Source: Candidatus Nitronereus thalassa
GTDB taxonomy: Bacteria; Nitrospirota; Nitrospiria; Nitrospirales; UBA8639
Length of the DNA stretch: 64,000 nucleotides
NCBI RefSeq assembly: GCF_032191465.1
Contig: NZ_JAQOUE010000001.1
Span: 1,922,001 to 1,986,000, forward strand
Reading direction: 5' to 3'
Positions 13,555-16,154 of this stretch are shown piece by piece (positions within the stretch are counted from its first letter, which is position 1; each line of letters opens with the position of its first letter). Under the pieces are notes generated by a model. That model searched no databases and was not told the DNA's origin. It was given only the letters and a program-made list of their open reading frames with translations. A program made the translations under genes and the position numbers.

Positions 13555-15102
13555 TTAACACAACCCGATTTTCTTCCCCGTATCCTTGCGCCGCTCCAAT
13601 TGACTCGCCAGCTTATTCAATGCATTAAGATAGGCATGCGCTGAGGCCACGATAATATCCGTATCCGCTCCATTCCCGGTCACGGTTTCTCCGTCTTGCT
13701 CCAGGCGCACGGACACCTCCCCTTGCGCATCCGTGCCTCCCGTTATGGCTTTCACCACATAGGATAATAATTTACTTTTTGTTTGAGTAATTTGCGCAAT
13801 CGTCCGATACACGGCATCTACCGGCCCATCACCCGTTCCAGTTTCTTTTAATATTTCTCCCTCAATATCCAATTCAACTGTCGCGGTGGGGACTTGGTTC
13901 ATGCCGCTCTGGGTACTCAACGCTTTCAACGAATATCGCTCAGGAACTTTGGTCGCCGTCTCCGACACAATCGCTTCCAAATCTTCTTCGAATAATTCCC
14001 GTTTCTGATCTGCCAAACGTTTGAAACGCTCGAACGCCGCATTGATTTCTTCATCCGTTAATGAATATCCAAGTTTATTCAGTTCTTCACGAAAAGCATG
14101 GCGACCAGATAATTTCCCCATTACCAACCGGCTTTGTGTCAGTCCAATCGAATCTGGCTGCATAATTTCATAGGTGCTTTTATCTTTTAGTAGTCCGTCT
14201 TGATGAATGCCCGAAGTATGAGCGAAGGCGTTGGCTCCGACAATGGCCTTATTGGGCTGCACGACCATCCCCGTAATTTTGCTCACCAATCGACTGGTCT
14301 TGGAAATTTCTTCAGTATGAATCTGGGTACCCGCCTGATAAAAATCTTCACGGGTCCGCAATCCCATGACAACTTCCTCCAAAGATGCATTCCCTGCCCG
14401 TTCCCCAATCCCATTGATCGTGCATTCGACTTGCCGCGCTCCGGCATAGATGGCTGCCATAGAATTGGCAACGGCCAACCCCAAATCATTATGGCAATGG
14501 ACAGAGATAAACGCCCGATCACAATCACGTACCCGTGTTCGAAGCGTACGAATAATTTCTCCGAACTCTTGGGGTGTCGTATACCCCACGGTGTCTGGAA
14601 TGTTTACCGTTTTCGCGCCAGCATCGATCACCGCCTCCACCACCTCGCACAAATAGGAGATATCCGCTCGGGTCGCATCCATGGGAGAGAATTCCACATC
14701 GTCCACATAGCCCCGCGCATGCTTCACCATATCCACCGCACGGGCCAACGCTTCTTCTCGGGTCATACGAAACTGGTGTTTTAAATGAATATCCGAGGCT
14801 GACAAAAAGGTATGGATACGTGGTTTGGGCGTTCCCTTTAAGGCTTTCCATGCGGCATCAATATCTTCAGGCTTCGCACGGGCCAAACTACAGACCGTCG
14901 GGCCTTCGACCTCCTGTCCAATTCGGTGCACCGCCTCAAAATCGCCAGGCGAGCTAAAGGCAAACCCGGCTTCGATGATATCCACATTCAACCGGGCCAA
15001 TTGCTTCGCCACCAAAACTTTTTCTTCCACATTCATGCTAGCGCCGGGAGATTGCTCCCCATCTCGCAACGTCGTATCAAATATTCGAATATGTGTAGTC
15101 AT
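13555..15102 (-). CDS. leuA: 2-isopropylmalate synthase
   Basis: 515 aa from the ATG at 15102, chosen because GGAGG lies 8 nt upstream; five further upstream codons are not needed. It condenses acetyl-CoA with 2-ketoisovalerate, the first committed step to leucine. The catalytic TIM barrel starts with '[19 protein letters not shown]' and has '[17 protein letters not shown]' and '[19 protein letters not shown]'. The C-terminal 130 residues form the LeuA allosteric domain, so leucine feedback inhibition is likely. An intrinsic terminator lies about 100 bp upstream, between this gene and pssA, together with a Leu-rich mini-ORF, suggesting attenuation control. Confidence 0.97.
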
Positions 15103-15200
15103 AGGTAAGTCCTCCAAATCAGAGGGAATTCACAATGGTCCATCCAAAATGGTTGCGGCCAACAAAAAGAACAGTGCCGGCCAAATTCAACTCCCTCCCA

Positions 15201-15237
15201 AAATAAAAAAAGCCTTCACCCCGTCGAGGTGAAGGCT
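15201..15237 (-). terminator. Intrinsic terminator in the leuA leader
   Basis: A perfect 10-bp stem (15211-15220 with 15228-15237) with a 7-nt loop, followed on the minus strand by an unbroken run of seven U. It sits 23 nt after the stop of a 31-codon Leu-rich ORF and about 100 nt before the leuA start, within an otherwise continuous minus-strand gene run. This is a typical attenuator position. The bases just before it on the transcript, GGGTGGCA, resemble the core of a T-box element, but the rest of the T-box consensus is missing. Confidence 0.85.
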
Positions 15238-15259
15238 GCCACCCGATACGAGGTAATTT

Positions 15260-15355
15260 TCAGAATCCGATTAATAGGGTAAGCACCCCTAGCAGAACGA
15301 GAGATTTATCCCATAGGAGGAGGGTAGCGCGTCCTTTTCCTTGCCATTTATTCAT
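15260..15355 (-). CDS. 31-aa Leu-rich mini-ORF upstream of leuA (candidate leader peptide)
   Basis: Starts at the ATG at 15355 with an excellent RBS (AAGGAGT, 7 nt spacing) that overlaps the end of pssA. Of 31 residues, 9 are leucine, including three consecutive Leu codons (CTC CTC CTA), then CTC, CTG-CTA, CTT and CTA-TTA. The terminator of the leuA leader begins 22 nt after its stop. This is the architecture of a leucine leader peptide whose translation would control termination ahead of leuA. The alternative is a tiny membrane protein, since the second half (LVLLGVLTLLIGF) is also a plausible membrane helix. Both readings treat it as translated; the regulatory reading is inference. Confidence 0.6.
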   Translation of the reverse strand: MNKWQGKGRATLLLWDKSLVLLGVLTLLIGF

Positions 15356-15359
15356 GCGT

Positions 15360-16154
15360 TTACTCCTTTGAATCAGAATACTTCGTTGGCGTATGGACCA
15401 TCGTTTCGCGTTTTCCAGAAACTCGCACCATACTCCAGCCCTTCTCCAATAAACCTGAAGCAGCATAGCCAAGGCAAATCATAAACAACATCAGTTGGGG
15501 ATACGCCATGACCGACACTAAAATCAAAACAGCCCAGACCAAATACATGAAATGATGTTGCCCCTGAAATTGCAACTGTTTCACACTTCGATACTTCACC
15601 GTACTAACCATCAGAAACGACATCAATAAACTGAGGGCAATCACAACGTACGGCAAGGCGATTTCGGATAAGTGCCCAATGTGATTATCAAAAATATAAA
15701 ATGTCGAGATAAAACCCGCAGCTGCAGGAATGGGCAATCCCGTAAAAAACCGATTATCCCCGCTACTGCCCATCACATTGAACCTGGCCAATCGAAGCGC
15801 GCCACAAGCCACATAGGCAAACATCACGGCGGCTCCTAACATTCCTGGAGATTTCAAGGCCCAAACGTACACCAAAAATCCTGGGGCCAAACCAAACGAA
15901 ATCAAATCCGAGAGGGAATCATACTCCACCCCAAACTCACTCGTGCTATCGGTCAAGCGCGCGGAGGTTCCATCAAGCACATCAAATATCATCGCAATTA
16001 AGATTGCAATCGCCGCCGCTTCAAAACGCCCATGAAACACAAAAACCACAGATGCCAATCCGCTAAACAAATTCCCGGTCGTCAAAATATTGGGGATCAG
16101 GTGCACCCCACGACGACGCTTGCCTTCTTTATTTTTAAAGAGACGTCCTTTCAT
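15360..16154 (-). CDS. pssA: CDP-diacylglycerol-serine O-phosphatidyltransferase
   Basis: 264 aa integral membrane enzyme that makes phosphatidylserine from CDP-diacylglycerol and serine. The CDP-alcohol phosphatidyltransferase signature is complete: Asp58-x2-Asp61-Gly62-x2-Ala-Arg-x8-Gly-x3-Asp79-x3-Asp83. About six to eight hydrophobic helices follow the basic N-terminus. 'IPNILTTGNLFSG' at about residues 20-32 is typical of bacterial type II PssA. The ATG overlaps the psd stop by 4 nt, so the two are translationally coupled and catalyse successive steps. Confidence 0.97.
   Translation of the reverse strand: MKGRLFKNKEGKRRRGVHLIPNILTTGNLFSGLASVVFVFHGRFEAAAIAILIAMIFDVLDGTSARLTDSTSEFGVEYDSLSDLISFGLAPGFLVYVWALKSPGMLGAAVMFAYVACGALRLARFNVMGSSGDNRFFTGLPIPAAAGFISTFYIFDNHIGHLSEIALPYVVIALSLLMSFLMVSTVKYRSVKQLQFQGQHHFMYLVWAVLILVSVMAYPQLMLFMICLGYAASGLLEKGWSMVRVSGKRETMVHTPTKYSDSKE

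Follow-up and report, generated by a model that had tools for sequence, protein, structure and literature searches.

The gap between pssA and leuA in Candidatus Nitronereus thalassa raises the question of how leuA is controlled, as it holds a short leucine-rich ORF followed by an intrinsic terminator. The window (the whole stretch of DNA analysed, 64,000 nucleotides) carries on its minus strand the genes ilvB, ilvN, ilvC, psd, pssA, the leader, leuA and leuB, in that order; names are taken from the translations, and Pfam matches confirm the identities of pssA, psd and leuA. A sequence-only reading had proposed translation-coupled leucine attenuation, with a small membrane peptide or a degenerate T-box as alternatives. 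The features concerned are as follows.

15360 to 16154, minus strand: pssA, CDP-alcohol phosphatidyltransferase family (Pfam), adjoining the leader on its upstream side; stop codon at 15362-15360
15363 to 15368, minus strand: Shine-Dalgarno AAGGAG of the leader ORF (sequence; relatives)
15260 to 15355, minus strand: leucine-rich leader ORF, 31 codons plus TGA (sequence; conservation in relatives)
15272 to 15322, minus strand: segment with all nine Leu codons (12-14, 19, 21, 22, 25, 27, 28)
15249 to 15254, minus strand: predicted antiterminator outer helix, 5' arm ACCTCG, pairing with 15223-15218 (folding)
15240 to 15244, minus strand: predicted antiterminator inner helix, 5' arm GGGTG, pairing with 15231-15227
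15204 to 15237, minus strand: intrinsic terminator AGCCTTCACCTC-GAC-GGGGTGAAGGCT plus T7 (terminator scan; genome pattern search; sequence models)
13555 to 15102, minus strand: leuA, 2-isopropylmalate synthase, putative regulated gene (Pfam HMGL-like, LeuA_dimer)

The leader ORF runs from the ATG at 15355 to the TGA at 15262-15260 and is translated as MNKWQGKGRATLLLWDKSLVLLGVLTLLIGF. Nine of its 31 codons encode Leu and codons 12-14 spell LLL, exactly as first described. The near-perfect ribosome-binding site claimed for it is also in place (AAGGAG at 15368-15363); it lies 7 nt upstream of the ATG, within the final pssA codons. Leu averages 9.4% in the genes, against which nine in 31 is an excess (binomial P 0.0013), and of the mechanical ORFs in the window that are 20-50 aa long (753 in all), just one is equally Leu-rich. 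CTA is the rarest Leu codon (5.6%), yet it accounts for three of the nine.

The terminator begins 22 nt behind the leader stop codon. Its stem (15237-15211) is followed by seven T at 15210-15204; spacing and T-run are as originally read, whereas the stem, taken then to have 10 bp, has 12 pairs and a 3-nt loop in the scan. It is by far the strongest terminator-like site between 12 and 21 kb of the window, and a pattern search of the 4.01-Mb genome gives no second copy of the stem core GCCTTC...GAAGGCTTTT. The absence of an evident promoter behind it holds: the scan lists no promoter-like site in the 109 nt between the U-run and the leuA start. That leuA needs read-through is seen best in relatives. 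In eight genomes from five genera (L002, L003, L017, L018, L020, L024, L025 and L028) this distance is 24-27 nt, which is too short for a promoter, so leuA must be transcribed through the terminator. In many Nitrospira loci, the interval between terminator and leuA contains a palindromic dispersed element (TGAAAA..CCAGCGGCGTTCTC...GCGGCCTTGCTGGA..TTTTGA). It is found in this gap in L057, L058, L082 and L090 and, as a diverged copy, at 15103-15203 in the window; its core recurs elsewhere in the genome of the window, four times exactly and four times nearly so.

The pssA-leuA gap was extracted from genomes of the window's family; genus (g1-g10) and family (f1, f2 and so on) labels come from the genome search, g1 being the window's genus and g2 its sister genus. 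The leader ORF is in frame in 15 additional genomes of these two genera. It has 28-35 codons and starts a few bases downstream of the pssA stop. Among 12 ungapped ORFs, pN/pS is 0.64 in the leader frame; the two alternative frames give 0.82 and 1.16. The Leu columns (12, 13, 14, 19, 21, 24 and 25) have a pN/pS of 0.23 versus 0.76 for the remaining columns, a constraint equalled by 0.2% of random column sets, but they were chosen as Leu in at least half of the rows, and this selection favours low values there. Columns chosen from L008 and tested in g1 only give 0.26 versus 0.61. Columns chosen from the window and tested in g2 only show no added constraint (0.67 versus 0.52), because some of the window's Leu codons are found in the window only. 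Synonymous swaps are frequent at conserved Leu codons (CTA/TTA at 14, CTC/CTT at 12, CTT/CTG/CTC at 25). The segment behind the stop codon, ACCCCGAAACAGGT, is almost invariant in g2, while the ORF has about 0.3 differences per synonymous site. Comparison of the gap thus bears out the expected conservation of Leu codons and ribosome-binding site, with constrained Leu columns and an AAGGA-like motif in most relatives. Two kinds of exception occur: the L016 leader has two Leu codons left and its stop lies too far upstream, and the L005 and L007 leader ORFs stop about 8 nt early. Repeat sequences have invaded the gap in small genomes of g2 and its kin (L005, L007, L054 and L130). In L005 and L007 the insertion is inside the leader ORF and the reading frame stays open; in L130 the leader is lost.

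Other genera of the family show other arrangements. In g9 (L020, L021, L024, L025 and L028) there are different short in-frame ORFs at the same site, for example MGMKFCTFLRSQVELMHTSQCLFLLGKV, each with two or three consecutive Leu codons near its end, a few codons upstream of TAG; a GATCGGG behind the ORF could pair with the complementary CCCGATC of the terminator. In L017 (g8), a GTG-started ORF containing LLW is possible. In L018 (g6) the terminator is present, without a convincing leader ORF. In g10, g7, g4 and g5 the terminator is lost and the gap is mostly about 60 nt or less. The L017 gap, on the reverse strand of the locus, also contains a second short ORF, MERRFPLGGKSGNL, which starts on the stop of the first and ends near the antiterminator; a similar FPLL stretch is found in L018. 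These may be the real leader in those genera.

The segment between leader stop and terminator (ACCTCG...GGGTG in the window, ACTCTG in L002, ACCCCGAA..AGGT in g2) is able to base-pair with the terminator, at CGGGGT and CACCT. Its availability was followed in a ribosome sweep, in which the RNA is transcribed up to GGGGTG and the ribosome is assumed, in line with what is generally known of ribosome footprints, to mask 13 nt beginning with the first base in the A site. For 13 of 14 leaders, the predicted pairing probability of the antiterminator is 0.58-1.00 when the ribosome occupies the conserved Leu codons 19-25 and 0-0.11 when it has reached the stop codon; the window values are 1.00 at Leu codons versus 0.11 at the stop. 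Codons 12-14, some of which the sweep took in, are farther upstream, and by the same geometry a ribosome there would also leave the segment free. Masking at the stop results from the short distance between stop and segment, which is found in most relatives; the stop is earlier in L005, L007 and L016. Antiterminator energy is no better than that of shuffled sequences, either for the window (P 0.08) or for most relatives, and plain folding of the whole leader is uninformative (z -1.3). The search for covarying stems found little true covariation. In L054, two extra terminator G (CGGGGGGT) appear by eye to be matched by extra opposite bases (ATTCCCTG), a single G-U-rich hint of co-change. An apparent covariation between the T-box antiterminator helix and the inner helix of the window was rejected, since the two helices are offset by about two bases in register and MAFFT puts the indels in the wrong place.

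Ribosome-mediated leucine attenuation is the best explanation for a conserved frame with conserved Leu codons, a terminator without promoter room behind it in relatives, and an antiterminator segment predicted to be freed by stalling and masked at the stop codon. The proposal of translation-coupled attenuation is therefore supported by the constrained Leu columns, the promoter-free gaps and the antiterminator geometry of 13 of the 14 leaders. The leader is probably an operon-internal transcription attenuator of this type, built, as far as sequence comparison can tell, on the terminator of an ancestral leucine T-box.

The evidence for this ancestry lies in the neighbouring families. T-box matches are found in 86 of 146 genomes of the order, which are all 86 genomes of the sister family f3, with one match per genome except for one genome with two weak matches; there are none in the 48 genomes of the window's family or in the 12 genomes of families f2 and f4. 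In the loci that were read, the f3 T-box is directly upstream of leuA and behind pssA, and the specifier region GAACTC, with the Leu codon CUC, is present in 51 of 52 aligned loci. Lineages further removed also have a T-box before leuA: L163, where it is recognised by motif, L169, and L180, whose match exceeds the Rfam cut-off. In L169, positions 1-260 hold a second, partial T-box-like segment (a repeated stem I sequence) upstream of the full T-box, perhaps a tandem or duplicated T-box. In a LeuA tree, the window's family (100/100) groups with f3 (93/94), and f2 and f4 are outside. A model of the 3' half of the f3 T-box matches the terminators of g6, g8 and g9 (E 8e-5 to 4e-3 in about 143 kb) and gives no direct match to those of g1 and g2. 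A second model, made from g6, g8, g9 and f2, matches both the window's terminator (3.4e-5) and an f3 terminator (7e-8). The terminator is thus most simply explained as a T-box remnant; it appears to descend from the T-box retained by f3 in the same gap. The GGGTG arm of the inner helix is a possible relic of the T-box GGGTGG. On balance, it seems more likely than not that in this family a leucine T-box lost its tRNA-reading half and a translated Leu leader took over, keeping the T-box terminator and converting the T-box antiterminator into one governed by ribosome position, with graded forms in living genera. The losses in f2 and f4 are compatible with more than one exact history.

Descent from a T-box could also mean that the element has simply decayed. 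In that case only the terminator would survive, serving as a weak constant brake or just ending the operon, and the presence of the Leu-rich ORF would be incidental. The kinship of the terminators fits such decay, as do the genera that have lost everything and the antiterminator energies, which are not significant by shuffling. In the f2 genomes L183 and L188, moreover, a bare terminator of the same core stands before leuA with neither T-box nor leader ORF; the terminator alone is thus no proof of regulation and can persist as a relic. However, mere decay is unlikely given the strong constraint on Leu columns in a frame conserved across two genera, the near-invariant segment behind the stop, the separate Leu-ending ORFs of g9 and the eight genomes in which no promoter fits behind the terminator. 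Far less credible is a cryptic tRNA sensor that still functions, in the form of a minimal T-box lacking the usual stem I. GGGTGG immediately upstream of the stem and the T-box of the sister family at the same place would suit it, but the T-box model (RF00230) has no match at E 0.001 in the window's own genome and none in its family, an all-Rfam search of the leader returned chance matches only (PyrR, 16 bits), and stem I, the specifier loop and the UGGUACC tRNA-binding bulge, all found in f3, are missing. The degenerate T-box of the sequence-only reading hence stands as ancestry and falls as present function. A small membrane peptide acting as a protein is equally improbable, for although the C-terminal half of the window peptide is hydrophobic, the L003 (MGKRQGNGRNAIFLREARRLFGLLEPSGR) and L016 peptides have no hydrophobic stretch, the protein is barely constrained outside the Leu columns and it has no Pfam match.

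Ribosome-mediated attenuation at this locus would work as follows. It would use parts that can be read from the DNA itself (the ORF and its conservation, the terminator with no promoter room behind it in relatives, and the kinship of that terminator with T-boxes); its predicted elements are the stalling, the antiterminator and the direction in which leuA would respond. Translation of the leader ORF would start just behind pssA and would probably be coupled to pssA termination. When Leu-tRNA is ample, the ribosome would reach the leader stop and cover ACCTCG, and the terminator would form upstream of leuA. When it is scarce, the ribosome would stall at the Leu codons, leaving ACCTCG free to pair with the terminator loop and 3' arm; polymerase would then continue into leuA and leuB.

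Several known systems are comparable. The Leu leaders of Proteobacteria (Rfam Leu_leader RF00512; E. coli leuL) likewise have a short Leu-rich ORF with a rare Leu codon (CTA here), and a terminator with an alternative pairing upstream of leuA. The RF00512 covariance model gives no match to the window's leader up to E 10. The window also differs in having no clear protector (1:2) hairpin, so that masking of the antiterminator would be done directly by a ribosome that has reached the stop, and in that its leader is operon-internal behind pssA, in another phylum, with a terminator of apparent T-box descent. The nearest precedent is the S. aureus ilvD attenuator. Here a Leu-rich leader ORF with a terminator and an antiterminator stands in the place of a Leu T-box of B. 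subtilis; the authors describe the attenuator as loosely resembling T-boxes without stem I (Kaiser et al. 2018, PMC5794164). As presented in the passages of that paper on the attenuator, it differs in its ilvD-first operon, its 26 codons with Ile and Leu, its location at the operon start and the additional involvement of CodY, and these passages include no phylogenetic series linking the attenuator to a T-box. The sister-family T-box (RF00230; e.g. Nitrospira moscoviensis, L090) shares the pssA-leuA gap, the terminator core and the amino acid, Leu (CUC specifier); the window has an ORF in place of stem I, specifier and tRNA-binding bulge. Actinobacteria have a LEU element and leader peptides with a Leu-run ORF upstream of leuA, but use a pseudoknot with the leuA ribosome site instead of a terminator (PMC1262725).

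A 2013 survey lists T-boxes from Firmicutes, Actinobacteria, Chloroflexi, Thermus/Deinococcus and Geobacter (PMC3766115), from which Nitrospirota T-boxes seem to be little described; a literature search found no paper that describes a T-box or leader attenuator upstream of Nitrospira leuA. We judge the new element here to be a leader attenuator in Nitrospirota that uses T-box-derived parts, the leader-attenuator kind itself being known. Amino acid starvation is classically sensed by RNA in two ways, with T-boxes and with leader-peptide attenuators, and replacement of one by the other is poorly documented. In these sister families both are found in the same gap, where they share the amino acid and have related terminators; the change can thus be traced stepwise and tested at the bench.
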